Shown here: in pieces, positions 34,079 to 56,813 of the stretch
Layout: each line of letters opens with the position of its first letter
How positions within the stretch are numbered: the stretch's first letter is position 1
Source: Candidatus Thalassospirochaeta sargassi
Lineage (GTDB): Bacteria; Spirochaetota; Spirochaetia; UBA9216
Length of the DNA stretch: 64,000 nt
Assembly (NCBI GenBank): GCA_028532855.1
Contig: JAQQAL010000017.1
Coordinates: 1-64,000, forward strand
Direction: 5' to 3'
Translations under genes and position numbers: made by a program
The notes under the pieces: model-generated
Seen by the model: only the letters and a program-made list of their open reading frames with translations
What the model was told of the DNA's origin: nothing
Database searches by the model: none

Positions 34079-34096
34079 TGCTAAACCGTTTTAGCA
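34079..34096. promoter_or_regulatory. LacI-type operator before the lacI-like gene
   Basis: TGCTAAACCGTTTTAGCA is an 18-bp palindrome with 7-base arms TGCTAAA/TTTAGCA and a central CG step, as in LacI/PurR-family operators. It ends 15 bases before the start of the LacI-family gene, which opens the operon, so it gives negative autoregulation of the whole operon. Confidence 0.75.
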
Positions 34097-34111
34097 TCAT
34101 GTAATGACGGA

Positions 34112-35179: not shown

Positions 35180-35840
35180 CAATTATCTCAAAGAGGCGGA
35201 AGAGATTTTCAGTAAAAATGGGTACCTGCTGCCCCCATGGGCAAGCTGGAAGCCTGAAGTATGGAAAAAGAATGCAGGGAAATGTAAAAACCTCTTTGAC
35301 AGCTGTCTCGGCTGGGATCTTACTGATTTCGGTAGTGAAGATTTCCTGAACAGGGGTCTGCTGCTGGTAACCGTGAGAAACGGAAATGAAACTGATGACG
35401 AAAAACCCTATGCTGAGAAAATAATGCTGATAAAGGAAAATCAGGAAACCCCTTTTCACTTTCACTGGTCGAAGACCGAAGACATTATCAACCGCGGCGG
35501 AGGAAACCTGGTGCTTGAACTTTACAATTCTACGGAGGATGAGAAGTTCTCTAATGAAACAGTTTCTTTTCTCACCGATGGAATAGCTAAATCAGTAGAA
35601 CCGGGTGGCAGGGTTGTTTTAACTCCGGGAGAAAGTATAACGCTTAAGACAGGTGTTTATCATCGATTTTATGCTGAAGAAGGAAAAGGTCCAGTGGTCG
35701 CCGGTGAAGTAAGCATGACGAATGATGACGCAGCGGATAACAGATTCTATGACAACTGCGGTAGATTTCCAGCAGTCGAAGAGGATGAATCGCCATACAG
35801 ACTCCTGGTCGGAGACTACGATTCGTTTATAAAGGAATAA
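35160..35840 (+). CDS. D-lyxose/D-mannose ketol-isomerase (YdaE-like)
   Basis: A 226-residue single-domain cupin that matches D-lyxose isomerases in length and motif. The metal site is seen as PFHFHWSKTEDIINRGGGNL (His, His, Glu), with the later His in LKTGVYHRFYAEEGKGPVVA. N-terminal features YLLPPWASWKPEVW are also typical of this family. These enzymes interconvert D-lyxose with D-xylulose and D-mannose with D-fructose. It starts within the lacI-like gene behind GGAG and is followed after one base by the sugar kinase. This points to a non-phosphorylated aldose being isomerised, then phosphorylated. Confidence 0.87.
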   Translation: MKRSVINNYLKEAEEIFSKNGYLLPPWASWKPEVWKKNAGKCKNLFDSCLGWDLTDFGSEDFLNRGLLLVTVRNGNETDDEKPYAEKIMLIKENQETPFHFHWSKTEDIINRGGGNLVLELYNSTEDEKFSNETVSFLTDGIAKSVEPGGRVVLTPGESITLKTGVYHRFYAEEGKGPVVAGEVSMTNDDAADNRFYDNCGRFPAVEEDESPYRLLVGDYDSFIKE

Positions 35841-35841
35841 G

Positions 35842-38318: not shown

Positions 38319-39788
38319 ATGGAAGAAAACAGCACACAAATACGCGAACTCAAACCCCGGAATTACATAGCCTACGGACTCGGCGACCTCTACGGAGGCG
38401 GCTCATTTTTTCTGATATCAACTTTCAGCATGTATTTTCTTGTCTCGGTAGTCGGAATGAACCCTGTGCTTGCAGGACTGATACCCGGCCTCGGCAAGAT
38501 CTGGGATTCAATATCTGATCCGTTGATGGGTTATTTAACCGACAACAATAAATCCAGGTTCGGACGAAGAAGGGTTTTCTTCCTCATAGGAATCATACCT
38601 ATAATGGTAACATTCACACTTATCTGGCTGCCTGTCCCCTTCAAGAGCCAGATTTCACTGTTTATCTATTATTTTATAACCTATCTTATGTTCTACAGCT
38701 GCTCTACCATGGTGCTTGTTCCATATTCCGCCCTGAGTGCCGAGATGACAAATGATTTCAGCAAGCGTAACCGCCTGATAGGGACAAGGATGGTTTTTTC
38801 AATGGCTGCAACCCTGATTGGGGGCGTTGCCGCACAGCCGCTAATCAATTCCTTTTCGAGCCAGAGCATGGGACATTTGATGATGGGGCTTATATTTGCT
38901 ATAATTTTCGCCCTTCCCTATATCCTGGTATTCCTCGGAACCTGGGAGATACCGATTGAAAGGAAAGTGAAAGATGAACGCAGCTCAATTCTTAAAAACT
39001 TCAGTTCAATCTACCGTAACAGAACCTTCCGAATCCACATCCTGATGTATATCTGCGCCTACGCAGCAATGGATATTCTGATGGCCTGGTTTAAATTCTA
39101 CGTAATTGATTACCTGAAAAATCCGCAGGTTGTAACCTTCGGACTCGGAGCCATACTTATTACCCAGTTAATCGCCCTGCCCGTCTATGTAAGGATTTCG
39201 AACAGACGGAGTCATGCCTTTGCCTACCGTACGGGCCTTATAATCTGGGCTCTTGCAATTGCGGCCCTGACGATACATCAGCCCGGCGGCAGTATGCTCC
39301 GGCTGATCCTCAACTGCGTCTGCATAGGTGCGGGAATGTCGGCCGGAGTGATAATCCCTTTTCAGCTGCTGCCCTTTGACGCGGATGTCGACGAGCTTAT
39401 AACAACTGAAAAAAGGGCCGGAACATACGCAGGCGCAATGACACTGATAAGAAAACTTATTCAGGGAGCCCTTGTACTCCCAGTTCTGGGCCTTCTGCTT
39501 TCGCTGATAGGTTATCAGACTTCTACCGATGGTGAAATTATAATCCAGACTGCTGAGACAATGCTGAGGCTGAGAATAATCTTCATTACGGCGCCCATGC
39601 TGCTTGCTGTTACAGGCATTCTCGTCAGCTTTCGTTTTCCGGTTACCCCTAAAACTCATAAAATTCTAATGAATGAAATAGACCGATTGAAAAAAGGAGG
39701 AGACAAGTCTGAAGTGTCGCCAGAAACAAAATCGGTCTGTGAAAAACTCACCGGTCTTGATTACATGCACCTTTATAAAGAATCCTGA
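38319..39788 (+). CDS. GPH-family sugar:cation symporter (MelB-like)
   Basis: A 489-residue transporter with twelve predicted helices. The family signature is clear: YGLGDLYGGGSFFL in TM1, then GLGKIWDSISDPLMGYLTDN with the conserved aspartates, then RFGRRRVFFLIG. A second cytoplasmic motif occurs at KRAGTYAGAMTLIRKLIQGA. GPH proteins import sugars or sugar glycosides with Na+, H+ or Li+. It lies last in the lacI-lyxose isomerase-kinase-dehydrogenase operon and probably brings in the substrate. A 64-base gap with an inverted repeat sits in front of it. Confidence 0.9.
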   Translation: MEENSTQIRELKPRNYIAYGLGDLYGGGSFFLISTFSMYFLVSVVGMNPVLAGLIPGLGKIWDSISDPLMGYLTDNNKSRFGRRRVFFLIGIIPIMVTFTLIWLPVPFKSQISLFIYYFITYLMFYSCSTMVLVPYSALSAEMTNDFSKRNRLIGTRMVFSMAATLIGGVAAQPLINSFSSQSMGHLMMGLIFAIIFALPYILVFLGTWEIPIERKVKDERSSILKNFSSIYRNRTFRIHILMYICAYAAMDILMAWFKFYVIDYLKNPQVVTFGLGAILITQLIALPVYVRISNRRSHAFAYRTGLIIWALAIAALTIHQPGGSMLRLILNCVCIGAGMSAGVIIPFQLLPFDADVDELITTEKRAGTYAGAMTLIRKLIQGALVLPVLGLLLSLIGYQTSTDGEIIIQTAETMLRLRIIFITAPMLLAVTGILVSFRFPVTPKTHKILMNEIDRLKKGGDKSEVSPETKSVCEKLTGLDYMHLYKES

Positions 39789-39879: not shown

Positions 39880-39925
39880 TTGACATTCCAGATAGATCGT
39901 GGTTTACTTACTTATTGTAAGTAAA
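39880..39925 (+). promoter_or_regulatory. Promoter and ROK-type operator of the ABC sugar importer operon
   Basis: TTGACA (39880-39885), 17 bases, then TTTACT (39903-39908) as -10. The -10 lies inside a perfect palindrome TTTACTTAC-TTATT-GTAAGTAAA (39903-39925), so a bound repressor would block polymerase. The same architecture, TTGACA-N17-TTTACTTAC, recurs at 44019. AAGGAG follows 10 bases before the ATG. Confidence 0.8.
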
Positions 39926-39948: not shown

Positions 39949-41244
39949 ATGAAAAAGAAAGTAATTCTAATGCTCATCACTACAATCCTGGCTTTATCTG
40001 TAGTTATGATTACAGGATGTAAGAAAGAGGATGAAAGTAAAGCTGATCAGCCCGCTAAACAGGAACTCATCACCCTGAAATGGCCCACAATCTGGGTTGG
40101 TGAAGATTCAAAGGCTCCGATGATTGCAGCCCTTGTAGACGAATTCAATGCAATGAATGAAGGCAGGTATAAGGTTGAAATCGAGGCTAACCCGGATTAC
40201 GACGCATATCGAAACAAACTTAACTCGCAGATCGCTGCGGGCGTTGTCCCCGATCTCTTCGTTTTAAACCCCGATCCTACTTCACTCTCATTTTATGAGG
40301 GCGATCTTCTTATGGATTTCGCTGAGGAACTGTCAGGCAGCTGGGGAGATAATTTTGTATCGGGAGCTATTTCCGGTGCAACAATCGACGGAGCTTTAAA
40401 GTCTATTCCTTACGAAGTCGGCTATACTCCGGTCTGGTATAATATGGATATTTTCAAGGCTGCAGGCATCCCGGACATCCCCAAAACCTATGATGAATTT
40501 TTTGATGCGTGTGAAAAGATCAAGGCTGCCGGTTTTATCCCGACAAGTCAGATGACCGGAGGAACAAACGCCTGGACATCAATGCTCTGGTTCTCTCATA
40601 TTGCAGCATCAATAGGCGGACCTGATGTTTGGGAAAAAGACATCACCGATCCGGTATTCGTTCAGGCTGCTGAGATTCTCAGGATGATGTACATTGACGG
40701 CAATACCTCAAAAGATGCAGTGGGAGGAGATGCCGGGGTTTCAGGCGGACATTTTCTCGCAGGCAGAAGTGCAATGTTCATTAATGGCCCATGGTATATA
40801 GGCCGGGTAAAGAATGATGCTCCGGATGTATTCAAGGCTACAAAAATTGGTCCCGCGCCTGCTGTAGAAGGAGGATTCGAAGGCGCTCAGATAGGTTTTC
40901 CGCAGTCCAACCTGGCAGCCGGTGCTACTGATGATCCGGCAAAGAAAGAAGCTGTTATTGCTTTCATGAAATGGATGACTCTGCCTGAAAACGTAAAAAA
41001 GATTTCAATGGATGCAGGCTCAATGTTCGCTGTTAAATTCGGAGTTGATGACGGGGAAGATGTAGATCTTGTTCAGGGCCAGTTTATGAATGCAGTAAAC
41101 GACTCAGCATTTGTTAACACCCATTTTCAAGCCAACTTTGCCACCGACGTTGTTGCAGAGTTCGGACAGGCTCTTGCCAGGATGGCGTTAGGCAAAGCAA
41201 CAGCTGAAGAGTTCATACAGCAGATTGCCGATAAGATCGACTAG
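39949..41244 (+). CDS. ABC transporter sugar-binding lipoprotein
   Basis: A 431-residue extracellular solute-binding protein of family 1 (MalE-like). The signal ends MITGCKKED with lipobox cysteine 24. Typical elements are VVPDLFVLNPDP near the N-lobe hinge, ALKSIPYEVGYTPVWYNMDI in the ligand cleft, and FLAGRSAMFINGPWYIGRV, the usual 'G-x-a-A-M-x-x-x-G-x-W' segment. It binds an oligosaccharide or glycoside in the periplasm and delivers it to the two permeases encoded downstream. Repression by the nearby ROK protein is suggested by the operator in its promoter. The ligand cannot be read from sequence. Confidence 0.93.
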   Translation: MKKKVILMLITTILALSVVMITGCKKEDESKADQPAKQELITLKWPTIWVGEDSKAPMIAALVDEFNAMNEGRYKVEIEANPDYDAYRNKLNSQIAAGVVPDLFVLNPDPTSLSFYEGDLLMDFAEELSGSWGDNFVSGAISGATIDGALKSIPYEVGYTPVWYNMDIFKAAGIPDIPKTYDEFFDACEKIKAAGFIPTSQMTGGTNAWTSMLWFSHIAASIGGPDVWEKDITDPVFVQAAEILRMMYIDGNTSKDAVGGDAGVSGGHFLAGRSAMFINGPWYIGRVKNDAPDVFKATKIGPAPAVEGGFEGAQIGFPQSNLAAGATDDPAKKEAVIAFMKWMTLPENVKKISMDAGSMFAVKFGVDDGEDVDLVQGQFMNAVNDSAFVNTHFQANFATDVVAEFGQALARMALGKATAEEFIQQIADKID

Positions 41245-41280
41245 AACAAGGCTGTTCTATTTCTCTGCAAATGATTATTC

Positions 41281-41312
41281 AGAACCCGGCTGCCAGGTCG
41301 GGTTCTATTTTT
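41281..41312 (+). terminator. Intercistronic stem-loop/attenuator between binding protein and permease
   Basis: AGAACCCG (41281-41288) pairs with CGGGTTCT (41299-41306) over a 10-base loop and runs into ATTTTT. Such elements let the binding-protein message exceed the permease message in ABC operons by partial termination or 3'-end protection. It also rules out the upstream ATG at 41271 as the permease start. Confidence 0.75.
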
Positions 41313-41327
41313 AAGAGGTTACTTTAT

Positions 41328-42212
41328 ATGAGAGTGAATAAAAACTGGAAGCAAATCATCCTCTTTCTTTTGCCGGCACTTATTCTCTTCGGTGTATATT
41401 TCATCTATCCCCTCGGCTTTGTCATCGTGACAAGCTTTTCGAAATGGAATGGAATATCAGCGCCGGTATTTCATGGTTTTAAAAACTATATTGAACTTTT
41501 TCAGGATGAAACTTTCAGACTCTCTATGCGAAACAACATTGTATGGGCCCTTGTTCTGGGCTTTGTTCAAATCCCGCTTGCTGCTGTCATGGCAATGATT
41601 CTGGCAAGAAAACCTAAAGGCTGGAAGTTTTTTAGAACCGCCTACTTCCTTCCAAATGTAATTTCACAGGTAGCCCTCGCTATGATGTGGCTGGCTATCT
41701 ATAACGCTGAATTCGGAATCCTTAATAACCTCCTTGAGATGATGGGTTTTGAAGGCCTGACCCGTAACTGGCTAGGTAATATGGACACGGCATTTCCTGC
41801 TGTTCTTGTTCAGCAGGTTTTCTACATTGGTTATTTCATGGTTGTAATTCTTGCATCGCGAATGGGTATTCCGGATTCCTACTATGAGGCCGCCGAGATA
41901 GACGGGGCGAATGTCTTTCAGCAGGAATTCTACATCACATTACCCATGCTGAAACCTATTCTCATAACCACTATGACCCTTGCCCTTGCCTACGGCATGC
42001 GGCATTTTGAATCAACATATCTCATGACCAACGGTGGACCAGCCCATTCAACCTCGGTAATGGGAATTCTTCTGTACAGGAACCTTGGAGCTTTGAATTA
42101 CGGTGAAAGCAATGCAATCGGTGCAATCCTGATTGTTTTCGGAGGCGCAACCATCGCCCTTATCAGGTGGCTGTTCAGCAGAAATCTCGATGCCGACGAT
42201 GGAATTCAATAG
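41328..42212 (+). CDS. ABC sugar transporter permease (MalF-like)
   Basis: The ATG at 41328 is chosen because it lies behind AAGAGG and after a terminator-like hairpin; it gives a 294-residue protein. Six membrane helices are predicted, starting with IILFLLPALILFGVYFIYPL. The EAA loop for ATPase contact is YYEAAEIDGANVFQQEFYIT, in the usual place before TM5. It forms the import channel with the next permease. No gene for the ATP-binding subunit lies in this operon, so a shared MsmK/MalK-type ATPase encoded elsewhere is presumed, as is common in sugar importers. Confidence 0.92.
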   Translation: MRVNKNWKQIILFLLPALILFGVYFIYPLGFVIVTSFSKWNGISAPVFHGFKNYIELFQDETFRLSMRNNIVWALVLGFVQIPLAAVMAMILARKPKGWKFFRTAYFLPNVISQVALAMMWLAIYNAEFGILNNLLEMMGFEGLTRNWLGNMDTAFPAVLVQQVFYIGYFMVVILASRMGIPDSYYEAAEIDGANVFQQEFYITLPMLKPILITTMTLALAYGMRHFESTYLMTNGGPAHSTSVMGILLYRNLGALNYGESNAIGAILIVFGGATIALIRWLFSRNLDADDGIQ

Positions 42213-42220
42213 GAGGAAAA

Positions 42221-43078
42221 ATGCATAAAACAAGAAGCCTTAATAGAACATCACCGGTTGATATAATGGCTAGAACGGGCAAATGGATATATCTGATCTT
42301 TTTTCTGATATTGACAATCCTGCCGCTCATATGGCTTATAATTTCCTCTTTCAAAACAAATTACGAGTTTGAAACACAGCCATTCGCACTTCCGGTTGTC
42401 TGGCAGATTCAAAACTATATCAAGGCATTTCAGATGGCTAACCTCGGTAGACTCTTCCTCAATTCTGTTATTGTCGCCATCTGTACAACAGCATTCAACA
42501 CCCTTGTAGCCTCCATGGCCGCTTTTGCTATATCCCGCGAGAATTTCAGATTCAAGAATGGTTTACTGACCATAATCCTGTCAGGCGTTCTCATTCCTAT
42601 AATCGCTCTCATGGTTCCCTACTTTAAAATCGTAAGCGGACTAGGATTATACGACACCCTGCCGGGACTCATAATTACCTATTCTGCAATAAATATTCCC
42701 ATTTCCGTCTTTCTGATTCACGGGTTTATGAGTACAATTCCTAAGGAGCTTGAAGAAGCCGCAATCATTGACGGATGCTCATTCACTCAGCGATATACAC
42801 GCATTGTGCTACCCTTGTCCATCCCCGGACTGGTCACCTCCGGAACCTTTGTTTTCATATACTGCTGGAATGAATTCACCTATGCAATGCTGCTTACATC
42901 ATCAGAGGCAAGCCGAACGCTTCAGCTTGGTATACGTTTTTTCAGAAGCCAGTTTGTAACAGATTACACATCAATGCTTGCCGCAATCGTTATAACAATG
43001 GTTCCGACCATCTTCGTCTACATCTTCATGCATAATAGAATAATAAGCGGAATGACCTCCGGCGCCGTTAAGGGATAG
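42221..43078 (+). CDS. ABC sugar transporter permease (MalG-like)
   Basis: AGGAGG at 42211 sets the start at ATG 42221, 285 residues. Six helices are predicted (from IYLIFFLILTILPLIWLIIS). The EAA loop is LEEAAIIDGCSFTQRYTRIV, followed by LPLSIPGLVTSGTFVFIYCW. The late YTSMLAAIVITMVPTIFVYI helix and the final HNRIISGMTSGAVKG are standard for MalG-type proteins. It begins 8 bases after the first permease and is followed 26 bases later by the amidohydrolase gene in the same transcript. Confidence 0.92.
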   Translation: MHKTRSLNRTSPVDIMARTGKWIYLIFFLILTILPLIWLIISSFKTNYEFETQPFALPVVWQIQNYIKAFQMANLGRLFLNSVIVAICTTAFNTLVASMAAFAISRENFRFKNGLLTIILSGVLIPIIALMVPYFKIVSGLGLYDTLPGLIITYSAINIPISVFLIHGFMSTIPKELEEAAIIDGCSFTQRYTRIVLPLSIPGLVTSGTFVFIYCWNEFTYAMLLTSSEASRTLQLGIRFFRSQFVTDYTSMLAAIVITMVPTIFVYIFMHNRIISGMTSGAVKG

Positions 43079-43104
43079 GACGGAACGTTGAACCTGCAGT
43101 AAAA

Positions 43105-44010
43105 ATGATAACCGATATCCATATACATTTCTGCGCAGCTGATCGATTTGATGAATTACTTCAATTCTGTGCGGAAGCAGGAATAAACCGTGCTGGACTG
43201 GTTTCTCTCCCCGACAAAAAAAACGGAAACTTCAACAGCGCCGTCCAGAAAGCCTTTAAATCAGCCCCGGAGAAATTTATCGGGTTCGGATGTCTTGATC
43301 ATCGCAGAGAAAGGACTGAAAAAAACGGAGCCATGCAGGTAGAAGAGCTTTACAATGAGGGGTTTAAAGGCCTCAAACTTTTGCTTGGAAAACCGGCCGC
43401 AGAAGACGAGTTCAAGCTCGAAATGGAAAGCAGCTATATTGCAGGAGCCCTGAAAGCCGCAGCAAACCTGAACATGCCGGTGCTGTTCCATATTGCCGAC
43501 CCGCCTGATCATTTCCCGAAACAGCCACCCGGGACCTTCAGCAGATGGATAGAACGCGGTGTCGAATTATTTTCAAATTTCCCGGAGACAACCTTTATCA
43601 CTGCACACCTTCTGTTTCTTGCCGGAGGTCTGAGCAATCTCAGCCGCATTATGGAAACCCTACCCAATCTTTACCTGGACACTGCACCCGGCCGCTGGTT
43701 CTACCGCCCGCTATCTGAAAATAAAGACGCTGCAACAAATTTCTTCAATTGCTATGCTGACAGGCTGCTGCTGGGCAGTGATTCGATCTTTGTTTCGCCT
43801 GATATCACAACATATCCTATGTTAGGCATCGAAGAAAACAACAGAACAATAAGAAGAATAAACCGATTTCTTAGCGCTGGCGAACATGAAATAATAGACG
43901 ATCCCTACCCAGGTAACGGTGGCGGCTGGCTAGCCTGTCTTAATCTGGATAAAGCCGTTATCAAAAAAATCACCCGCACCAATGCTGATCGCTTTTTCAA
44001 AGATGCATAA
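43105..44010 (+). CDS. Amidohydrolase_2 family metal-dependent hydrolase/decarboxylase-like protein
   Basis: A 301-residue TIM-barrel protein of the amidohydrolase_2 (ACMSD-like) group. The metal ligands are visible: HIH at residues 5-7 (ITDIHIHFC), the His of MPVLFHIADPP, the His of TFITAHLLF, and the Asp of LLLGSDSI. Family members hydrolyse lactones or amides or decarboxylate acids. It follows the sugar permeases on the same strand and so belongs to the importer operon. A sugar lactonase role is possible, but the neighbouring pathway does not obviously need one, so the substrate is left open. Confidence 0.75.
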   Translation: MITDIHIHFCAADRFDELLQFCAEAGINRAGLVSLPDKKNGNFNSAVQKAFKSAPEKFIGFGCLDHRRERTEKNGAMQVEELYNEGFKGLKLLLGKPAAEDEFKLEMESSYIAGALKAAANLNMPVLFHIADPPDHFPKQPPGTFSRWIERGVELFSNFPETTFITAHLLFLAGGLSNLSRIMETLPNLYLDTAPGRWFYRPLSENKDAATNFFNCYADRLLLGSDSIFVSPDITTYPMLGIEENNRTIRRINRFLSAGEHEIIDDPYPGNGGGWLACLNLDKAVIKKITRTNADRFFKDA

Positions 44011-44018
44011 TATAAAAA

Positions 44019-44064
44019 TTGACAAATATCCACGGATATGCTTTACTTACTTTGTGTAAATAAC
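44019..44064 (+). promoter_or_regulatory. Promoter and ROK-type operator of the isomerase-GH31 operon
   Basis: TTGACA (44019-44024), 17 bases, TTTACT (44042-44047). The operator TTTACTTAC-TTTGT-GTAAATAAC (44042-44064) covers the -10; the right arm differs from perfect symmetry at two positions. Spacing and sequence copy the promoter at 39880. Confidence 0.75.
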
Positions 44065-44079
44065 TAACAAGGATAGGAT

Positions 44080-45396
44080 ATGAAACATTTGGTAAAACTG
44101 GGTGTAGTTTGCCTGGCTAGGACAACATTTGATTATAAGGCAGCCGAAAAGCTGTATGAGAATATAACTGAAAACCTGAAGAAAACTGAAAATGCGGAGA
44201 TAATTGCAATTCCAGGGCTTGTCATTGAACCTGAAGATGCGCATGCGGCAGCACTGAAGCTTGCCGGAAATGACATAGACGGATTGGTAATAATCAGTGG
44301 AACCTTTCACCTTGGTCATCTGGCTCTTGAGCTCGAAAAAATCCTCCATAAACCGATTCTATTGTGGGGACTACCTGAACTTGAATACAATGGAGGCAAG
44401 ATAAGACTCAATTCCGTCTGCGGCGTAAACCTGAATGCGTCCAACCTTTATAAAAGCGGTGTCCGTAATTATCACGTAAATGTCGGCTCATCGATTGACA
44501 ACGACTGGGTAGACGCTTTGAGAATAGCTGCCGCACTCCGGAATGCTCACATCGGCCTGCTTGGCTACAGGGCCAAGGGGTTTTTCAACCTGGGGGTTTA
44601 TGATCTCAACGTCTACAGCAAGATGGGACTTCTGATAGACCATTATGAACTCACCGAAGTCTGGAATCGCGAAGTGCCTGAAGAAGCATTATCAGCCAGA
44701 CTCAGACAGCTGAAAGAAATCTTCGAAACCGATGAACTTTCCAACGAGCAGATAATCAGAGTTGCCGAGCTATCGGTAAAACTCAACAGCTTTATGGACG
44801 ACAACAAACTCTCGGCTGCTGCAATCAGATGCTGGCCCGAATTCGCTGCAGAGTTCGGTATATCACCATGCGCCGCCATGTCTGTGCTTCAGAGCGAAGG
44901 CAGGATAATAGCCTGCGAGGGGGACATTGAAGGTGCAATCTCAATGCTTGCCCATTCAGCCGCAGGTGCTGAAACACCCTATCTCTTTGATTTCTCCCAG
45001 GTCGATTTCAGCGAAGACAGCGCCCTTCTCTGGCACTGCGGCGTAGCCCCCTGCAACCTCTGGGACGGTAGATGCAGCCGCTCGCTTTCAACCTACTTCG
45101 CGGGAGGCAAGGGCGTAACGGCAGATTTCGTACTGAAAGACGGGAATATCTCAGTTGTAAGGTTTGATTCAGCCGGAACCGAATATCGTATTTTCATAAC
45201 CACCGGAAAAGTAATTCCCATGGAAAAGGAATTGAAAGGAACATATATGAAAACAAGATTTGAAAAACCGGTGAAAGATGTTCTTCAGACTGTTGTGGAC
45301 AACGGAATAGCTCATCACGCATCTGTTGTATATGGTGATTTCATCAGACCCTTTGAAATATTCGCGAAAATCATGAAATGGAAAATAATTCGCTGA
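44080..45396 (+). CDS. L-fucose/L-arabinose isomerase-like sugar isomerase
   Basis: A 438-residue protein with the fucose/arabinose isomerase fold. Residues 1-150 are a Rossmann-like region (LGVVCLARTTFDYKAAEKLY, GLVIISGTFHLGHLA). The isomerase core has LGYRAKGFFNLGVYDLNVYS near 170, AIRCWPEFAAEFGISPCAAM near 265 and IACEGDIEGAISML near 290, the usual spots of the Mn2+ ligands. The C-terminal part is the beta-barrel domain. It is shorter than FucI (about 590) and nearer the unassigned isomerase-like group. It overlaps the GH31 gene by 19 bases and lies under the ROK operator. It likely converts the aldose released by that glycosidase to a ketose. Confidence 0.8.
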   Translation: MKHLVKLGVVCLARTTFDYKAAEKLYENITENLKKTENAEIIAIPGLVIEPEDAHAAALKLAGNDIDGLVIISGTFHLGHLALELEKILHKPILLWGLPELEYNGGKIRLNSVCGVNLNASNLYKSGVRNYHVNVGSSIDNDWVDALRIAAALRNAHIGLLGYRAKGFFNLGVYDLNVYSKMGLLIDHYELTEVWNREVPEEALSARLRQLKEIFETDELSNEQIIRVAELSVKLNSFMDDNKLSAAAIRCWPEFAAEFGISPCAAMSVLQSEGRIIACEGDIEGAISMLAHSAAGAETPYLFDFSQVDFSEDSALLWHCGVAPCNLWDGRCSRSLSTYFAGGKGVTADFVLKDGNISVVRFDSAGTEYRIFITTGKVIPMEKELKGTYMKTRFEKPVKDVLQTVVDNGIAHHASVVYGDFIRPFEIFAKIMKWKIIR

Positions 45397-47429
45397 TGGA
45401 ACTGAAAACCGCTAATAACAGGTTTCTGCTGTACAACGATAAGGGTAAACTGCTGCTTGAACACAGCCAGAGTAAACCGCTGATAAGCGCGGGAATTGGA
45501 GTGCAGAAGGTTATTTCCAAATCCGGATTCTATAAAATGCGGGAAAAAAAGCCAGTAATGACCCTATTTCAAAACTTCAGGATAACTGAACATGAAACCG
45601 GAAAAGCAGAAATTGAATTTATAAGTAACGGCGGAAGTATCATCAGGGCGCGAATAACTGAAAATATTAATGGAATAAAGATCAGATTCAAGGATAGGGG
45701 GCGGCATTTCAACCGCTTCAGCATCAGAATACCAGCCCTCGATGACCAGTTCATCTTCGGCTGCGGGGAACAGTACATGGGACGAAACCTGAGTGGCCGC
45801 AGGGTTCCGATATGGGTTTCTGAACCGGGGGTAGGTAGAAAAATCAATCTGATATCCCTTTTTGCTGCAGTAAGCATGAAACATTATCCCCGATGGTTCA
45901 ACACCTACTATCCCTCACCTGTATGGGTTAGTTCATCCGGCGGCTGGTTCCGATGCAATTCCACTATGTATACTGTCCTTGACTTCACCGATCCCGCCGG
46001 CCATTCAGCATATTTCTGGGGCGTACCCGACTCAATTGAATTCGGGAGGGAAGAAAGCGTTGCGGCCGCAGTAGGAGCCCTGAGCGCCGCGGAAGGCCGC
46101 CAGCCGAAGCTTCCTGAATGGGCTTACGATGGTCTTTGGCTGGGGACCCAGGGTGGAAATGAAAAGGTGTACGCTAAACTCCAGATACTCAGAGACGCCG
46201 GCGTAAAAGTGGGTGCTCTATGGTGCCAGGACTGGGAAGGCCGGCGCAAAACCTCTTTCGGCAGTCAGCTCAGGTGGGCCTGGGAATGGGATCCGCAACT
46301 TTATCCTGATCTTCCGGGTTTCATAAAAAAGCTCAAGGAAGAAGGAGTCAGGTTCCTCGGCTATAACAACACATTTTTAACACCCGGCAGCGATATGTTC
46401 GATGAAGCGGCCGCAAAAGGCTATTTTATAAAAAACCCGGACGGAAGCCCGTCAATGGTTGATGTACCCTTCGATCCCGCGGCACTCGTAGATTTCACTA
46501 ACCCGGAGGCGAAAGCCTGGCTGAAAGAAATTATCAAGAAGAATATGATCGAAATCGGAATGGCAGGCTGGATGGCGGACTTCGGAGAGATGATCCAGCA
46601 TAATACGGTGCTGGCTTCCGGGAAAAACGGGCTGGAGTATCACAACCGTTATCCCGTCGACTGGGCAAAACTCAATCAGGAAGCAGTCTCGGAGAGCGGG
46701 AAACAGGATGAAATAATCTTCTTTATGCGGGCAGGTTATGCTGGAGCTGTGAAAAGAACACCGCTGAACTGGACCGGAGATCAACTCGTTGACTGGAGCA
46801 TAGGAGACGGTCTGCCCAGTGCCATATCAGCATCGCTATCGATGGGGATGAGCGGAGTGGGTTATGTTCATTCCGACATCGGCGGCTACACCGGACTGGC
46901 CTGGAAAAGACGCTCGGAAGAACTGCTGATGCGCTGGACCGAATTTGCCGCATTCACACAGGTAATGCGCTCACATGAGGGAAACCGTCCCGAGAAAAAC
47001 GCCCAGTTCGGCAGCAGCAGCTTTCAGCTTTCTCATCTGGCAAAAATGACGGATGTCTACTGCATGCTGAAACCTGTTCATATGCAGCTGAGCAGTGAAT
47101 ACCGCGAGACCGGACTGCCACCCATACGGCATATGATACTGCACTATCCGGGCATATCCTTCGGAACCCCGGCATGGGCATATCAATATCTTTACGGACG
47201 CGACCTTCTAGTTGCTCCAGTAATAAGACCCCGCAAAAAAACCAGAAAGGTTTATCTGCCTGATGATAACTGGATTCATCTCTGGAGCGGACGGAAATAC
47301 AGCGGGAACAGATTTATCACAATTGAAGCCCCCCTTGGATGCCCCCCTGTTTTCTACCGGATAAATTCAGAACATTTTTCACTGTATAAAAAGATTGGAG
47401 ACAAATACCCGATTAAAGCCCCCCGGTAA
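45378..47429 (+). CDS. GH31 glycosidase, sulfoquinovosidase (YihQ)-like
   Basis: A 683-residue GH31 enzyme. It follows E. coli YihQ closely by eye, with a constant 4-residue offset: Gln284 of QDWEGRRKTSFG (YihQ Gln288), nucleophile Asp401 in WMADFGE (Asp405), acid Asp468 in WTGDQLVDW (Asp472), Trp300 (Trp304) and Tyr504 in SDIGGYT (Tyr508). The YihQ sulfonate-contact Arg301 is Gln297 here, although Arg299 lies two residues on. There is no signal peptide, so it is cytosolic and acts on an imported alpha-glycoside. Sulfoquinovosyl glycerol is the leading candidate, with the Arg change the main doubt. Its end overlaps the convergent ROK gene by 17 bases. Confidence 0.85.
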   Translation: MENNSLMELKTANNRFLLYNDKGKLLLEHSQSKPLISAGIGVQKVISKSGFYKMREKKPVMTLFQNFRITEHETGKAEIEFISNGGSIIRARITENINGIKIRFKDRGRHFNRFSIRIPALDDQFIFGCGEQYMGRNLSGRRVPIWVSEPGVGRKINLISLFAAVSMKHYPRWFNTYYPSPVWVSSSGGWFRCNSTMYTVLDFTDPAGHSAYFWGVPDSIEFGREESVAAAVGALSAAEGRQPKLPEWAYDGLWLGTQGGNEKVYAKLQILRDAGVKVGALWCQDWEGRRKTSFGSQLRWAWEWDPQLYPDLPGFIKKLKEEGVRFLGYNNTFLTPGSDMFDEAAAKGYFIKNPDGSPSMVDVPFDPAALVDFTNPEAKAWLKEIIKKNMIEIGMAGWMADFGEMIQHNTVLASGKNGLEYHNRYPVDWAKLNQEAVSESGKQDEIIFFMRAGYAGAVKRTPLNWTGDQLVDWSIGDGLPSAISASLSMGMSGVGYVHSDIGGYTGLAWKRRSEELLMRWTEFAAFTQVMRSHEGNRPEKNAQFGSSSFQLSHLAKMTDVYCMLKPVHMQLSSEYRETGLPPIRHMILHYPGISFGTPAWAYQYLYGRDLLVAPVIRPRKKTRKVYLPDDNWIHLWSGRKYSGNRFITIEAPLGCPPVFYRINSEHFSLYKKIGDKYPIKAPR

Positions 47430-48594
47430 AATACTCCTGGAAAACAATGTCGCAGGCGCCCATTCCGGCCTGCATTGGATCATAGAGAACCGCCTCCAGC
47501 CTGTATTCTCCGGCTATTCCATTGCAGTTAAGGATATCTGATGCTCCATCTGCAAGTCTGCGACTCAACTCAAGACTGCGGCTTATTATTAGAAACTTTC
47601 CCGGAGACAGAAGCTGGTTAAGGTTTCTGATTGCATATGCAAGCACTTCCGCTTTTTCATCAAGCACAGGGGCAAGTTTATCAGCCGGCTCACCGGAAGC
47701 GTAAAGTGCTGATTCCAGGTCAGTGATATTATCAATCCCTGCAGCCTTCCTAGTGGCCGTTAGAATGGCTTCCTCCGAAAGCAGGGTTTCAAGGCATCCC
47801 TTTGATCCGCATGAGCAGATATCTCCGTCAGGATCAATCGACATATGACCTATTTCCATTGTTGTGATATTTGAAGAAGTAAGAACCCGGCCCTGATTAA
47901 TGTAGCTTCCGCCTACTCCGCCCCTTATAAGAACGGCCATGATATTTCCGTCGTTCTCCATCTTTTTACTGTGATATTCATTCAGCGCTATTACCGAACA
48001 GTTATTATGAACAATTACAGGCACATTGAACTTATCCTCAAAAAACTCAGTAATATTGAAATCATTCAACCCATCTATCCTGGAATAGAACAAAACCTTT
48101 CCGGTTTCAATATCTACCCTGCCCGGTGCACCGATTCCTATCCCTGCAAGCTGTCCCGGCACTATACCTGCGGCCTTAAGCGAACGCTCTATAAGACTGG
48201 ACACTTTCCTGACAACAGCCTGGCTGCCTTTATCAGGATCGACATTCAGACTGTCCGAATACACCGGCTCTCTGACAAAATTTGAAATTACAACAGAAGC
48301 GGAACGCGACCAGAACTCAACTCCAACGACATAAAGGGCCTCCGGATTGAGCCTGTAGTAAACAGGCTTTCGCCCCTTCCGATCTGATGAAACCTTTCGG
48401 GCATCGGAAACTTCAATCAGCCCGTCTTCTTCAAGGTTTGTAAAAATACGCAGGATAGTAGGAGGCTTAAGTCCGGTTATTTCAACAGCCTCGCTCTGGG
48501 AAAAAACTTTTTCCTGCTGAATTAACCTGAGGACAAGTTTTTCATTTACCTTTCTGATGTCATTTCCCCGCAAAGCGGTCTTACTGTTTCTCAT
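47413..48594 (-). CDS. ROK-family transcriptional repressor
   Basis: A 393-residue NagC/XylR-type repressor. An N-terminal winged helix covers residues 15-70 (LRLIQQEKVFSQSEAVEITG, LKPPTILRIFTNLEEDGLIE). The ROK sugar-binding core follows: GIGIGAPGRVD, IMAVLIRGGVGGSYINQG, EIGHMSIDPDG and zinc site ICSCGSKGCLETL. The catalytic Asp of ROK kinases (N-D-A) is replaced: NNCSVIALNEY, so it should bind sugar without phosphorylating it. It sits between the GH31 and transketolase operons. A palindrome lies before its own start and matching sites lie before three neighbouring operons, so it is probably the local regulator. Confidence 0.93.
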   Translation of the reverse strand: MRNSKTALRGNDIRKVNEKLVLRLIQQEKVFSQSEAVEITGLKPPTILRIFTNLEEDGLIEVSDARKVSSDRKGRKPVYYRLNPEALYVVGVEFWSRSASVVISNFVREPVYSDSLNVDPDKGSQAVVRKVSSLIERSLKAAGIVPGQLAGIGIGAPGRVDIETGKVLFYSRIDGLNDFNITEFFEDKFNVPVIVHNNCSVIALNEYHSKKMENDGNIMAVLIRGGVGGSYINQGRVLTSSNITTMEIGHMSIDPDGDICSCGSKGCLETLLSEEAILTATRKAAGIDNITDLESALYASGEPADKLAPVLDEKAEVLAYAIRNLNQLLSPGKFLIISRSLELSRRLADGASDILNCNGIAGEYRLEAVLYDPMQAGMGACDIVFQEYFTGGL

Positions 48595-48636
48595 GGTATG
48601 TATTGTATTTATGTTTCCCGATTCTGTAAAGTGGAT

Positions 48637-48657
48637 TTTCTTACATGATGTAAGAAA
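48637..48657 (-). promoter_or_regulatory. ROK operator, autoregulatory site
   Basis: TTTCTTAC-ATGAT-GTAAGAAA is a perfect 8-base-arm palindrome 43 bases before the ROK start codon (48594, minus strand). Its core CTTAC-N5-GTAAG equals that of the 39903 site. Confidence 0.75.
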
Positions 48658-48709
48658 CTACCCCGCTCTTCTTTACAAAGCGAATTGCTGATGGTATATT
48701 GTTAATACA

Positions 48710-48727
48710 TTACTTACACTAAGTAAC
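48710..48727 (+). promoter_or_regulatory. ROK operator before the transketolase operon (one strong half-site)
   Basis: TTACTTAC-ACTAA-GTAAC keeps the left half and spacing of the CTTAC-N5-GTAAG site; the right half is GTAAC. It lies 17 bases before the transketolase ATG, with TTGCTG (48685-48690) as a possible -35. It is weaker than the other copies. Confidence 0.6.
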
Positions 48728-48743
48728 TTTAATAGGGGTTATA

Positions 48744-49586
48744 ATGAATACTGAGAAACTTGATTTCCTCACAGAAAAAGCAAAAGAAATAAGAATCAGT
48801 ACTATCGAAATGATTGGAAATCTGGGCGTAGGACATATAGGCGGGGCCCTGTCTATAGTGGAACTGCTCACCGCACTTTATAACGGCATAATGGATATTG
48901 ACCCGGAAGATCCCAAAAAGGCGAACCGCGACAAACTTGTTTTATCCAAGGGGCATGCCGGGCCGGCTCTCTACGCAACCCTGGCAGACAGGGGGTTTTT
49001 CGATAAATCGTGGCTCTCAACCCTTAATGCCGGAGGAACTATGCTTCCGAGTCACTGCGACATGAACCGCACACCGGGGATAGACATGACAACGGGATCT
49101 CTCGGACAGGGGCTTTCCGCAGCAGCAGGCCTATGCCTGTCAAACAGAATGAGCGGCATTGATAAAAGAGTTTTTGCTGTAATCGGAGACGGAGAAAGCA
49201 ACGAGGGCCAGATCTGGGAAGCGGCTATGGCAGCGTCCCAGTTCTGCCTTGACAAGCTGACGGCCTTTACCGACTACAACAAGATGCAGATAGACGGTAT
49301 GACTGCGGATGTAATGGACCTGGGTGATATTGAAGGTAAATGGGCATCCTTCGGATGGGATGTACAGCGAATAGACGGCCATGATATAGAAGCAATTTTT
49401 AATACAGTTGAGAAAGCAGATGTCGAAACGGACAAACCATCGATGATAATTCTAGATACAGTCAAGGGAAAGGGCTGCTTTTTTGCCGAAGGAAACCTGT
49501 CAAATCATAACATGGCTTTCAACAGCACGCAGGCGGCAGAGGCCATTGCCCTGCTCAGGAAGGAGAATAAATATGGGAATGCGTGA
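48744..49586 (+). CDS. Transketolase N-terminal (thiamine-diphosphate-binding) subunit
   Basis: A 280-residue half-size transketolase. GVGHIGGALSIVELLTALYN, LVLSKGHAGPALYATLADRG and the ThDP/Mg motif GDGESNEGQIWEAAMAAS with DYNKMQIDG are all present. The split arrangement (separate N and C subunits) is found in many bacteria and archaea. Substrate is unspecified by sequence. It is the first gene behind the ROK-type operator, and it overlaps the C-terminal subunit by 14 bases. In sulfoglycolysis of the transketolase type, a split transketolase (SqwGH) moves two-carbon units from 6-deoxy-6-sulfofructose to glyceraldehyde-3-phosphate; this pair is a candidate. Confidence 0.93.
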   Translation: MNTEKLDFLTEKAKEIRISTIEMIGNLGVGHIGGALSIVELLTALYNGIMDIDPEDPKKANRDKLVLSKGHAGPALYATLADRGFFDKSWLSTLNAGGTMLPSHCDMNRTPGIDMTTGSLGQGLSAAAGLCLSNRMSGIDKRVFAVIGDGESNEGQIWEAAMAASQFCLDKLTAFTDYNKMQIDGMTADVMDLGDIEGKWASFGWDVQRIDGHDIEAIFNTVEKADVETDKPSMIILDTVKGKGCFFAEGNLSNHNMAFNSTQAAEAIALLRKENKYGNA

Positions 49587-50505
49587 AACTTACACTGAAT
49601 CACTGATCCGGCTTGCGGAAAAAGACGAGCGCATATGTCTTCTTGATGCGGACCTTCGTGTAGGACATGGAACGAAGCCCTTTTACGATCGTTTTCCCGA
49701 TAGAGCAATCAACTGCGGTGTCGCCGAAGCCAACATGCTAGGCATTGCTGCAGGACTTGCCGCAGGCGGAAAAATACCATTTGCAGAAACATTCGGCTGC
49801 TTCGCTGCGCGCAGAGCATTTGATCAATTCTTTATCAGCGGCAATTACGCCGGGCTTAACGTAAAACTGCTCGGCTCCGATCCGGGCGTTACGGCAGCCT
49901 TCAACGGCGGCACACACATGCCCTTTGAAGACTTGGCACTGATGAGGGCAATCCCCGGATTGACAATAGTATCTCCCTGCGACCCCTACTCGCTTGGAGA
50001 ATTAATGGAGCCTCTGGCCTACAGCGACGGCTGTGTCTACCTCAGGATGCCGCGCAAAGCGGAGCAGCAGATATACATGGGTAATGAAAAAATTGAACTC
50101 GGCAGGGGCAAGGTATTAAAAGAGGGTTCAGACATAACCATTGCCGCAACCGGCTTCGTCATGGTTCCGGAGGCACTGAAGGCGGCGGAACTGCTCGATA
50201 AGGATGGAATCAGTGCTGCGGTAATAGACTTTCATACAATAAAACCGCTTGACACCGATCTGATTGAAGAATGGGCCGGAAAAACCACAATGATTGTAAC
50301 AATGGAAAACCATCAGAAAAGCGGCGGATTCGGCGGGGCTGTAGCGGAACATCTGAGCAGTACAAAACCTGTGCCGGTTTTTCGAATCGGCATTGAGGAC
50401 AGATTCGGCCAGGTTGGAACGGAAGCCTTCCTGAAACAGGATTACGGCCTCACTGCGGAGCAGTCTGCTCCGCTTATCAGGGATTTTTTCTATAAGTTGA
50501 AATAG
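49573..50505 (+). CDS. Transketolase C-terminal subunit
   Basis: The ATG at 49573, behind AGGAG and overlapping the N subunit, gives 310 residues. The pyrimidine-binding domain carries the catalytic glutamate in INCGVAEANMLGIAAGLA and the FAETFGCFAARRAFDQ segment. The C-terminal transketolase domain follows (EGSDITIAATGFVMVPEALK, VTMENHQKSGGFGGAVAEHL). The frame is open further upstream (49483), but that part lies in the N subunit. The two proteins form the active enzyme. The gene is 12 bases from the RpiB-like gene. Confidence 0.93.
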   Translation: MGMRETYTESLIRLAEKDERICLLDADLRVGHGTKPFYDRFPDRAINCGVAEANMLGIAAGLAAGGKIPFAETFGCFAARRAFDQFFISGNYAGLNVKLLGSDPGVTAAFNGGTHMPFEDLALMRAIPGLTIVSPCDPYSLGELMEPLAYSDGCVYLRMPRKAEQQIYMGNEKIELGRGKVLKEGSDITIAATGFVMVPEALKAAELLDKDGISAAVIDFHTIKPLDTDLIEEWAGKTTMIVTMENHQKSGGFGGAVAEHLSSTKPVPVFRIGIEDRFGQVGTEAFLKQDYGLTAEQSAPLIRDFFYKLK

Positions 50506-50517
50506 AGGAGAATTAAA

Positions 50518-51003
50518 ATGGCAGAAAAAACAGTTATTGCAATAGCTTCAGACCTGTCCGGGTTTCCACTGAAACGGGCTGTGGCCGAATATCTCAACGG
50601 CCGAAGTGATATAGAAGTAATAGATTTCGGAATTGAATCGGAAGATGTTCCGAAACCCTATTTTGAACAGGCTCCGAAGGTTGCCGAGGCTGTAGCGGAT
50701 GGACGTGCGGAAAAGGGCGTGCTTATCTGCGGCACGGGTCAGGGAATGGCGATAGTCGCAAACAAACACAAGGGTGTTTATGCCTGCGTTGTAGACGGAA
50801 TATTCTCAGGCGAGAGATCTAAGATTATTAACAACGCGAATGTAATAACCATGGGCGGATGGGTAACAGCCCCCTTCCTCGGGGTACAGATTGTTGAAGC
50901 CTGGCTATCCATGGACTTTGCACAGAAAATGGAGTTTAAAAAAGATTTTCTTACCAATGCCTTTGAAAACGTCAGAAAGATTGAGGAGAAAAACTTCGGT
51001 TAG
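50518..51003 (+). CDS. RpiB/LacAB-family isomerase, non-phosphate-sugar variant (SqwI candidate)
   Basis: A 161-residue RpiB-fold protein. The catalytic loop LICGTGQGMAIVANK is intact, with Cys71 and Thr73. Two residues used by ribose-5-phosphate isomerase B are changed: the DH-x-G motif near the start reads SDLSG (His to Leu13), and the ring-opening His of the S-R-Q-H-N-D segment is Ile104 (SKIINNAN). The C-terminal arginine cluster is also not obvious. A substrate without phosphate is therefore likely. The RpiB homologue SqwI of sulfo-transketolase pathways isomerises 4-deoxy-4-sulfoerythrose, which would fit. It closes the transketolase operon before a strong terminator. Confidence 0.82.
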   Translation: MAEKTVIAIASDLSGFPLKRAVAEYLNGRSDIEVIDFGIESEDVPKPYFEQAPKVAEAVADGRAEKGVLICGTGQGMAIVANKHKGVYACVVDGIFSGERSKIINNANVITMGGWVTAPFLGVQIVEAWLSMDFAQKMEFKKDFLTNAFENVRKIEEKNFG

Positions 51004-51024: not shown

Positions 51025-51064
51025 AGCCCCCGGAGATCAAACATTTTCCGGGGGCTATTTTATT
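51025..51064. terminator. Strong bidirectional rho-independent terminator
   Basis: AGCCCCCGGA (51025-51034) pairs with TCCGGGGGCT (51047-51056) around a 12-base loop and is followed by ATTTTATT. It closes the transketolase-RpiB operon and lies 14 bases from the end of the convergent giant lipoprotein gene, which it may also serve. Confidence 0.9.
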
Positions 51065-51077: not shown

Positions 51078-54000
51078 TCAGTATCTTGACATATGGTGCA
51101 CAAGGTTGATGAAGTAAGGCTTGCCGGTGTACGGCCTGTCGGTCAACGTTGGGAATCCGAACTGCAGAAAACGTCCCTGCCTTACCACTGGAAAACCGTA
51201 GGGATAGGAGGAGTTGTAATCTCTAGCATAGTTCTTTCCGTTATCCGGGTCCGCATTACCTGAGCGGTAGACCGAGAACCTTCGCTGCTGGTATGTATCA
51301 TATGTACCCAGGGTTGCATAACTAAGCTGTGTGGTGCTGTTGTGAGTAGGATCGTTTCCGCCGGCAAAGACTGTACTGCTCAGAGGGTAATCCCAGACAG
51401 AGTAATAGTATGTTGTAAACTGCCTGGTAATCGGGTTGTACAGATAATAGCTTTCAGTCGCAATCCACTGATATGCATAGACGGTTTCATCCTGCAATGC
51501 CTCGTTGGAGTAACTTTCACCATACCCTATCTGATTAGGATACTGATTTGTGCTGGTCAAATCAGTAGTAGAGTAACCCCAGCTTGACCAGTAGCTTTCG
51601 CAGGTGTCGAGAAATTTCACTCCCCCGTAACCCATGGCAACAATACCTGATTTAGAGCTCGTTGTAGTTGGCAGGGCGCTGTCTGTATTTGCACTGCGGT
51701 GAGCAATATTTCTCGTCCTGTTTGAACTTGAATAGACTGTTGCCCCCGGGGTAATAATAACCGGATCACCATAAATGATGTATCTGTCGTCAGTAGTTGT
51801 AAAGGAACTTGAGATCTGGCTATCCGGCACAAGGGCTACCGTCCAGTGGCTGGGCATTGAACCGCTTACCCAGGTTGAGTAGTCAGACTGGAAGGTTTCG
51901 TCCTCAAGCAGGGTTTTTATTTTCTGTGCAAGGAGCTCATCGGTTGTATCAAACACTCCGTTATTATTATCATTATAGATTACGGCAATGTACGCAGAGT
52001 AGGCTATCATTGTCGAACTGAAGTAGTTACTCTCCCCGAGGCTGCTGTTTACAGGTACAGCATAGATATAATAAAGCTGACCGGGAGTGAGGCTCATAGA
52101 ATATGTAGTCGATGATATGGGCGACGAATTATACTTCGTTTTTGTTCCGTTCAGGACGGTCGAGGTGTATATATTGTAGGTAATCGCTCCGTATTCCGAT
52201 CCATAGGATGTAAACTCAATATCAATGTCACCATTCGTCGTCTGGCCCTTGGTTGTACTGAGAATGGTCGGCGTACCATAAAAAATCATGTCGTTAGTCA
52301 CCGTTGCATATGTATGGTTACCGGCTGCATCATAGTAGTAGACCTCAACTCGCTTAACTCCGTATCCGGATGAGAGCGACCATGAACGGGCGGTTGAATA
52401 TGAATAGTAGGTATAGCCACCAGAGGTACCATTTCTTACATACATGGAGCTTACACTGAAACCGTCGGAGACACTGCTGTTTAGAGTAACCGAACTGCTG
52501 GATGTAGATGTTGCATTGCTGTTTATGTAAAAGGAATTAATAACCGGGGCCTTATTATCGAAACGTATTGAATCATATTTATAGGAAGATACATTACCTG
52601 CAGCATCCCTGACGCGGCAATAAATGTATTTATAAGCTTCCTCATATCCGGAACCGTAGATTGACCAGGATTCGCTGTGACTTGTTGAGGAATCGATTGT
52701 GTCCCAGCTTGCGGGCCATGGATCTTCGTAGTTTCTGAATTGGATATCAACTGGCTCACCGCTTGTTGTTACATAAAGGGTGACTGCGCGGTTGTTGGTA
52801 TAAAGCGGATTGCCGCTGTTTATATAGAGGGTGCTTACAACAGGGAGTGTCGTGTCAACAGTGATACTGTGAGAACCCGATACCGACCAATTGCCCGCCA
52901 GGTCTCTCTCCTGTACCTGAAGCGTTATAACCGTATTATCTGCAAGGGCTGCAGGATAGGTATAAGATGTGCCAGTGGTTTCTCCGCTCCAGTCTGAATA
53001 GGTCGAACCCCCGTTTGTAGAATAGCGGTAACGGAATATGCTTATACCGTCGGAACCGCCGTGCTGCCACGTGAAGGTAGGAGTTGTATCATTTGTGGTT
53101 TCCGGGTTTGTATAACCGGAGGTTACCGTTGGTGTAACCGTCGGTCCCACGAGGTCGACATCAACAACCGCACTGCTCTGACGCCATACAGAATTATAAT
53201 ACTCATCAACTATCAGGGTATGCTCACCATGGGAAAGATCCGAAGACGGCTGATAATTTGTATCGCTCGACCACGGCGATGATGAAGGAATCCAGGAACC
53301 TCCGTCAAGCTGATACCTGTATTCTGCATCAGGGTCAGCTCCTGCTCCCGAACTCCAGGACCACGTCGGCCGTGGATTATTAGTCAGCGTCGGGGCAGTA
53401 ATAAATGGAGTTGTGATATTCGTCGTGTCCACATCAATAATATGCGACACTGAGTCCGACCAGTTACCGGCTGCGTCAAGCTCCTGCACGGAAAGTTGCA
53501 GTTCATACTGTCCAGCTCCCTGATCAGAAGGCGTATAGGAAACAGCTGAATCCTGAATCGTGGTCGTGTCGCCGTATCTATCGATAAAAATATACCTGTA
53601 TTCGCCTATACCTCCGTTTCCGCCCGATTCCCAGCTCCAGGTGGGGGTGCTGTCAGGCGTTGCCGCCGGTGCGAAGATTACTGAATCTTCAGGACCGGTG
53701 GTGTCCCAGATAAAACTGTATAGAGCCTGGGTTATATTTCCGGCATTATCGCTCACACTGAGAGTCAAATCATATTCGCCGTCGGCGGTTGCCTGAATAG
53801 TCGGGGTAAGGGTATCGGTGTTCGTAATAACAAGGTTTCCAGTTGCAGGTTCGGCTTCTGCCCATATATAGCTTGCTGTATCGAGCCCGCTGCCTTCAGT
53901 TGATTCCACCCAGTCCGGATCATCGGCGGTACGAGGGTCATAGATCATACCTTCGGAGCCGCCGGCACCAGAATAATTAATCGACCGGGGAATGTTCGTA

Positions 54001-56795: not shown

Positions 56796-56813
56796 CAGCA
56801 TCCTCCCCTTCAC

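Follow-up and report, generated by a model that had tools for sequence, protein, structure and literature searches.

Gene content and organization of the locus

The stretch of 64,000 nucleotides analyzed here (the window) covers bases 1–64000 of a 172-kb contig in the 3.8-Mb genome of Candidatus Thalassospirochaeta sargassi (phylum Spirochaetota). At positions 39949–51003, it contains a gene cluster which very probably lets this spirochaete take up and ferment sulfoquinovose (SQ), a sulfur-containing sugar abundant in the membranes of plants and algae, via the sulfo-transketolase (sulfo-TK) pathway. A first-pass annotation of the DNA had recognized here an ATP-binding cassette (ABC) importer, a YihQ-like GH31 enzyme, a fucose-isomerase-like isomerase, a split transketolase and an RpiB-like isomerase, and every one of these genes proved to be an intact open reading frame of the family assigned to it. 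The inventory was incomplete in two places, having missed an Amidohydro_2 gene and a likely second transporter of the MFS_2 family.

The importer genes, all on the plus strand, encode a solute-binding lipoprotein (SBP; 39949–41244; Pfam SBP_bac_8, 1.4e-33) with 42–55% identity to the SBPs in SQ clusters of relatives, a first permease (41271–42212; Pfam BPD_transp_1) with 53–61% identity to its counterparts in spirochaete relatives, and a second permease (42221–43078; Pfam BPD_transp_1, 9.9e-21), the frame of which is open from GTG 42167, with ATG 42221 as the likelier start. The Amidohydro_2 gene (43105–44010, plus strand; Pfam 5.3e-12) stands 3' of them. A second plus-strand operon codes for a predicted SQ isomerase with an arabinose/fucose isomerase fold (44080–45396) and a predicted GH31 sulfoquinovosidase (45378–47429), and is followed on the minus strand by the gene of a ROK-family repressor (47413–48594; Pfam ROK, 7.4e-31, plus a winged helix). 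The third operon, again on the plus strand, consists of the genes for an SqwG-type transketolase subunit binding thiamine diphosphate (ThDP; 48744–49586; Transketolase_N, 1.4e-47), an SqwH-type subunit with the pyrimidine-binding and C-terminal domains (49573–50505; Transket_pyr, 5.5e-35) and a predicted SqwI-type sulfoerythrose isomerase of the RpiB family (50518–51003). The SqwH-type gene starts at about 49573, with a longer frame possible from TTG 49483. A strong intrinsic terminator on the plus strand, a 12-pair stem followed by a T-rich tail (51025–51056), closes the operon. As the first-pass annotation had stated, neither a sugar kinase nor an ABC ATPase is present between 39949 and 51003.

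The GPH-type MFS_2 symporter, a likely second transporter of SQ or SQ-glycosides, is encoded upstream of the importer (38319–39788, plus strand; Pfam MFS_2, 3.6e-62). It has 38–59% identity to MFS_2 genes adjoining the same isomerase lineage in other genomes (L006, L040, L042, L044–L049) and probably belongs to the cluster; no operator was found 5' of its gene.

The sulfo-transketolase core

On sequence grounds, the core of the cluster is of the sulfo-TK type. The SqwG candidate has 57% identity to the copies in the clusters of Clostridium sporosphaeroides DSM 1294 (L114) and Faecalispora jeddahensis (L129), and 57–66% to those of most Spirochaetota. For the SqwH and SqwI candidates, the identity to the same two clusters, which also hold an iron-type alcohol dehydrogenase (Fe-ADH), a GH31 enzyme and an SftI-type isomerase, is 49–50% and 42–43%, respectively. 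The ThDP motif GDG...N is present in SqwG and the catalytic Glu (GVAE) in SqwH. In the TkC tree, the window's SqwH falls among the spirochaete cluster copies and apart from the genome's paralogues, whereby the branches of the latter are very long and the inner support is modest.

The SqwI candidate is closest to other spirochaete copies (68–75% identity, as against 42–47% to Clostridium cluster copies and 30–38% to the genome's own two other RpiB proteins). Its alignment shows the loss of RpiB motifs: SDHGG has turned into SDLSG (SDKSG in the clostridial copies), and the window's protein and these copies alike have a rebuilt REHNDAN region. It groups with copies from sulfo-TK clusters, distinct from RpiB. 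The grouping of the split transketolase with SqwGH and of the RpiB-like protein with SqwI, apart from the genome's paralogues, supports the sulfo-TK reading of the first pass. Complete versions of such clusters occur among relatives, one of them with the arrangement isomerase-GH31-SqwGHI-FeADH-TauE-DUF4867 (L083) and another in the close relative Sphaerochaeta halotolerans (L130).

Operator and regulon

The perfect palindrome TTACTTAC-N5-GTAAGTAA lies 25 bases 5' of the SBP gene (39904–39924). A copy with one mismatch precedes the isomerase-GH31 operon (44043–44063), one with two mismatches is located in the intergenic region between the ROK and SqwG genes (48637–48657), and a weaker operator-like site follows in the same gap (48710–48730). 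The Amidohydro_2 gene thereby also stands behind the first operator. At two mismatches or fewer, the pattern was found in only three places in the genome, all in the cluster and each preceding an operon; since the reversed pattern gave two matches per strand in the genome-wide control, presence alone is weak and it is the placement that counts. The four operator-like sites, compared with 0.15 expected in the 64-kb window, and the recurrence of the gene set in many Spirochaetota argue that the cluster is not a chance assembly. In relatives (L035–L039, L063–L065, L109, L115, L130, L132, L137), too, the motif stands 5' of genes for SBP, isomerase, GH31 or SqwG. The earlier claim of one repressor over the cluster agrees with the ROK gene and with the single operator common to the three units, and this operator together with the terminator after SqwI defines three operons of one ROK regulon.

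Proposed pathway and its weighing

From the observed gene content, orthology and shared operator, the catalytic steps, the direction of transport, the inducer and the end product may be predicted as follows. Uptake of SQ or SQ-glycosides would proceed through the ABC importer, the MFS_2 symporter or both; the GH31 enzyme would free SQ from its glycoside, and the isomerase of arabinose-isomerase fold would convert SQ to 6-deoxy-6-sulfofructose. SqwGH would then transfer a C2 unit from sulfofructose to glyceraldehyde-3-phosphate, leaving sulfoerythrose, which SqwI would isomerize to sulfoerythrulose; removal of a second C2 unit by SqwGH would leave sulfoacetaldehyde, while the two molecules of xylulose-5-phosphate would pass to central metabolism. 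Sulfoacetaldehyde would most likely be oxidized to sulfoacetate outside the locus and then exported. The ROK protein presumably represses the three operons at the palindromic sites until an SQ-derived sugar lifts the repression. We consider it highly probable that the locus is a sulfo-TK sulfoglycolysis cluster working in this way.

Several findings weigh against this reading. A split transketolase with an RpiB protein is not by itself diagnostic of sulfo-TK, as an unlinked operon on contig C30 of the same genome shows. The best family of the isomerase is the SQ isomerase SftI (NF048012, E = 6.8e-62), but its score of 210 bits stays far below the cut-off of 700, and the GH31 enzyme has the motif QQQWY, not QQRWY, with Gln297 at the position of Arg301 in Escherichia coli YihQ. 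The cluster contains no dedicated SqwF, SqwE or SqwD/KL gene and no linked exporter, and the SauS-like dehydrogenase and DASS transporter genes found elsewhere in the genome are unlinked to it and have no operator at two mismatches or fewer. Two other candidates for the terminal steps were rejected. The Fe-ADH on contig C6, the best match to SqwF (37%), has neighbors matching a CoA-transferase and a 4-hydroxybutyryl-CoA-dehydratase-like (HpaB-type) protein. The SucCD-like pair on contig C43, considered as SqwKL (61–75% identity to the pair of L065), lies directly after KorAB-like genes and is probably housekeeping SucCD; an operator with three mismatches 84 bases 5' of it is not clearly above chance over the DNA scanned.

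The operon on C30 (L167, G000:C30:5001–20000; genes 4041–9375) holds a second RpiB and split transketolase with 37–44% identity to those of the window, together with transaldolase-like, DapA-like and D-2-hydroxyacid dehydrogenase genes, and belongs to a different sugar pathway. Its existence lends some credit to the idea that the window, too, carries a generic pentose/tetrose module placed beside an unrelated alpha-glucosidase locus. We regard this as very improbable, since the C30 copies have low identity to those of the window and lie outside the sulfo-TK groups (on long branches), and one shared operator ties all three operons of the window together.

A separate lineage of predicted sulfoquinovose isomerases

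All four isomerases of this type that were scored (the window's and those of L035, L040 and L050) reached 174–210 bits with the SftI family. The window's protein has 30% identity or less to the SftI type and 22–23% to clostridial isomerases of the sulfo-TK type. Its lineage was found in 20 of the 393 phylum genomes sampled (own genome included). The other members are 50–64% identical to the window's protein, and the matches ranked after them have 30% identity at most. The tree unites the 27 members sampled, with an SH-aLRT support of 99% and on a long branch. No solved structure homologous by sequence was found, and the predicted model (pLDDT 88) has L-arabinose isomerase as its best PDB match (TM 0.86).

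Around the isomerases of this lineage in the sampled genomes, GH31, split transketolase, SqwI, ROK, and ABC or MFS_2 genes occur in varying order, in some loci with Fe-ADH, TauE or DUF4867 genes as well. Other loci carry a transaldolase, accompanied in L050 by a gene similar to sulfolactaldehyde (SLA) reductase and TauE, and in L040 by a GFO/IDH/MocA protein, maybe SqgA-like. Through the company of transaldolase and SLA-reductase-like genes, the lineage is linked to SQ beyond the transketolase context. Being common to two different sulfofructose-cleaving modules, the protein is best read as a predicted SQ isomerase of a separate lineage, which also strengthens the assignment of the whole cluster to the sulfo-TK pathway.

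Two further observations concern this lineage. In L040 (10391–15080) and L042 (9421–15096), the isomerase, MFS_2, transaldolase and GFO/IDH/MocA genes stand in a row, possibly a sulfo-transaldolase cluster with an NAD-dependent (SqgA-like) sulfoquinovosidase. Two Lokiarchaeota metagenome-assembled genomes (MAGs), L070 (JAHPYZ010000012.1) and L072 (JAEOTS010000157.1), carry an isomerase of the same lineage (60–62% identity) adjoining a YihQ-type GH31 (QQRWF), with contamination being possible; the contig of L072, which also encodes methylmalonyl-CoA mutase and MeaB, has in addition a transaldolase (65%), a carboxylesterase and an MFS transporter. According to a 2026 review, no SQ degradation pathway has been characterized in archaea.

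The GH31 enzyme without Arg301

The GH31 protein is of the NF007746/YihQ type (749 bits, above the cut-off of 553), matches YihQ-type structures at E-values down to 1e-170, and keeps both catalytic Asp residues (equivalents of D405 and D472). In E. coli YihQ, the residues holding SQ are Q262, Q288, the sulfonate-binding Arg301 (regarded as essential), W304 and Y508, and the sulfonate-binding signature of YihQ-type sulfoquinovosidases is QQRWY or KERWY. Neither variant is present in the window's enzyme, which retains Q262, Q288, W304 and Y508. The first-pass annotation had inferred the degradation of sulfoquinovosyl glycerol; with Arg301 missing, the usual signature does not secure the release of SQ from this substrate, which is therefore only predicted. 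An Arg at position 303 was considered as a substitute and rejected, as this position is F, M or Q in other Gln-type enzymes and may be R in Arg-type enzymes, too. No second sulfoquinovosidase was found in the genome, which has one YihQ-type GH31 and a best SqgA-like match of 27%.

Gln at position 301 occurs in 16 distinct sequences among about 90 sampled GH31 homologues. In the tree, they share a single region, within which a small Arg group is nested (two state changes, compared with about 14.6 in shuffles). They come from Spirochaetota, Bacillota, Thermotogota and Bdellovibrionota, and are found mostly in SQ gene clusters. Where Arg-type enzymes have Gly368-Glu369, most Gln-type enzymes have Thr-Thr and the window's enzyme Pro-Phe, so that the loss of Arg301 goes with the loss of Glu369, possibly through a structural link. 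In clusters that otherwise match, Gln-type (L041/L083) and Arg-type (L035, L036, L130, L137) enzymes take the same slot next to SqwGHI and the same isomerase, an arrangement that speaks for a common role. Apart from these, a Bacillota MAG (L068:10001–18395) has two 669-residue GH31 genes of a QQQWF type flanking one ABC importer.

The Amidohydro_2 protein has its metal ligands complete in the alignment (H6, H8, H129, H168 and D226), and its predicted model is a TIM barrel of medium confidence, nearest to amidohydrolases of the LigJ, LigY and ACMSD type. No solved structure homologous by sequence was found, nor was a close relative in the 392 other genomes (best match in the phylum, E = 9e-7). 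As a guess, it might trim an SQ conjugate or lactone.

The replaced Arg301, the isomerase score below the SftI cut-off and the amidohydrolase, which is absent from the SQ clusters of relatives, would all suit a locus running the same chemistry on another, non-sulfonated 6-modified glucoside, with the Gln301 enzyme acting on an alpha-glucoside that is neutral or bears some other substituent, and with the lower enzymes recruited to it. This alternative appears improbable to us, given that QQQWY and QQRWY enzymes share one slot in matching clusters, that QQQWY enzymes also stand beside transaldolase and SLA-reductase-like genes (L131, L139), that the other four SQ-holding residues and both catalytic Asp are kept, and that the orthologues of SqwI include copies from complete SQ clusters. 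That the Gln301 (QQQWY) lineage constitutes a third, undescribed class of sulfoquinovosidases, binding the sulfonate without Arg and here partnered with a second lineage of SQ isomerase, is a proposal to which we give an even chance.

Fate of sulfoacetaldehyde

The first-pass annotation had seen no reductase or exporter for the last product in the window, and indeed none is linked to the cluster. In three relatives (L064, L065, L037), genes of an acylating aldehyde dehydrogenase and/or an ATP-grasp CoA ligase and/or a DASS transporter come right after SqwI, which fits the published oxidative variant leading to sulfoacetate (PMC12890257). The window's genome has a candidate SauS-like acylating sulfoacetaldehyde dehydrogenase on contig C22 (544.6 bits, cut-off 600) and a candidate DASS transporter at the end of contig C17 with 70% identity to that of L065. 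These unlinked genes make sulfoacetate a likelier end product than isethionate. The SauS-like gene is followed by a class III aminotransferase gene (L199:8523–11372; G000:C22), and the two could also be a taurine-type degradation pair.

Clostridium sp. MSTE9 forms isethionate, which is also the inferred product of rumen Sphaerochaetaceae (PMC13219744). Above cut-off, the genome has 10 matches to Fe-ADH and five to TauE, so that sulfoacetaldehyde might be reduced by an unlinked Fe-ADH, with TauE-type export. Such an ending, which would leave the rest of the sulfo-TK pathway as proposed, we judge rather unlikely: none of the Fe-ADH proteins clearly qualifies as an SqwF orthologue, the best one sitting in a 4-hydroxybutyrate-type operon, and the matches of the acylating dehydrogenase and DASS transporter are much stronger.

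Neighboring genes

A PfkB kinase (35842–37044) encoded 2.9 kb 5' of the importer, not mentioned in the first-pass annotation, was rejected as a sulfofructose kinase, as it sits in a module of the lyxose-isomerase/mannitol-dehydrogenase type without the operator. This separate sugar module (33167–38254) comprises AraC and LacI regulators, a D-lyxose isomerase, the PfkB kinase and a mannitol-dehydrogenase-family gene. Farther upstream, on the minus strand (31131–33082), a CobW-type GTPase and the adjoining URO-D-family protein may form a corrinoid methyltransferase pair. The minus strand of 51078–58913, which is convergent with the SQ cluster, encodes a 1911-residue protein with bacterial Ig-like domains and a 699-residue TPR protein.

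Relation to known systems and implications

The sulfo-TK pathway of Clostridium sp. MSTE9 comprises SqvD, SqwGH, SqwI, SqwF and SqwE (PMC12890257, PMC11659671). The window's cluster likewise unites a predicted SQ isomerase, a split transketolase, an RpiB-family isomerase, an ABC importer and a GH31 enzyme, but differs from this type (the proteins compared being those of C. sporosphaeroides and F. jeddahensis) in its isomerase lineage, its Gln301 GH31, the lack of a linked reductase, exporter or DUF4867 gene, and the extra amidohydrolase. The oxidative variant of Acholeplasma, in which SqwD and SqwKL lead to sulfoacetate (PMC12890257, PMC11659671), has the same core and, as said, fits the tail genes adjoining SqwI in relatives, whereas the candidate tail genes here are unlinked to the cluster. 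Within the same phylum, a sulfo-TK cluster is known from the Sphaerochaetaceae (Neosphaerochaeta fermentans MAG SQrumen3; PMC13219744). The S. halotolerans cluster shares the isomerase lineage, gene set and operator with the window, but has linked Fe-ADH and TauE genes and a GH31 with Arg301. The window's GH31 is homologous over its full length to YihQ and SftG (PDB 5aed, 8r56), with the QQ-WY residues and the catalytic Asp pair, unlike them having Gln and Pro-Phe at the positions discussed above.

The sulfo-TK pathway in Spirochaetes is thus already published, both in a review of the work of Liu (2021) and Chu (2023) (PMC12890257) and for rumen Sphaerochaetaceae (PMC13219744). The elements that are, provisionally, new here are the GH31 lineage with Gln301, the separate lineage of isomerases, an operator conserved in relatives and oxidative candidate genes unlinked to the cluster. 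No prior report of either lineage or of the operator was found in the searchable literature, a scope outside which the original key papers lie, and a full-text search for the QQRWY/KERWY motifs returned unrelated papers only.

For spirochaetes, the conserved operator offers a sequence handle for predicting SQ regulons, and from the present case it seems that the genes of an oxidative tail forming sulfoacetate can lie dispersed across a genome. SQ production is estimated at 10 billion tons per year, and SQ-fermenting anaerobes feed sulfide producers (PMC12890257, PMC13219744). A motif has been built from published sulfoquinovosidase signature residues (PMC8397734); should the Gln301 lineage prove active, the signature by which sulfoquinovosidases are recognized would be too narrow. 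A search filter based on the signature residues of YihQ would then miss this lineage, and the SQ-degrading capacity of anaerobes would be undercounted.

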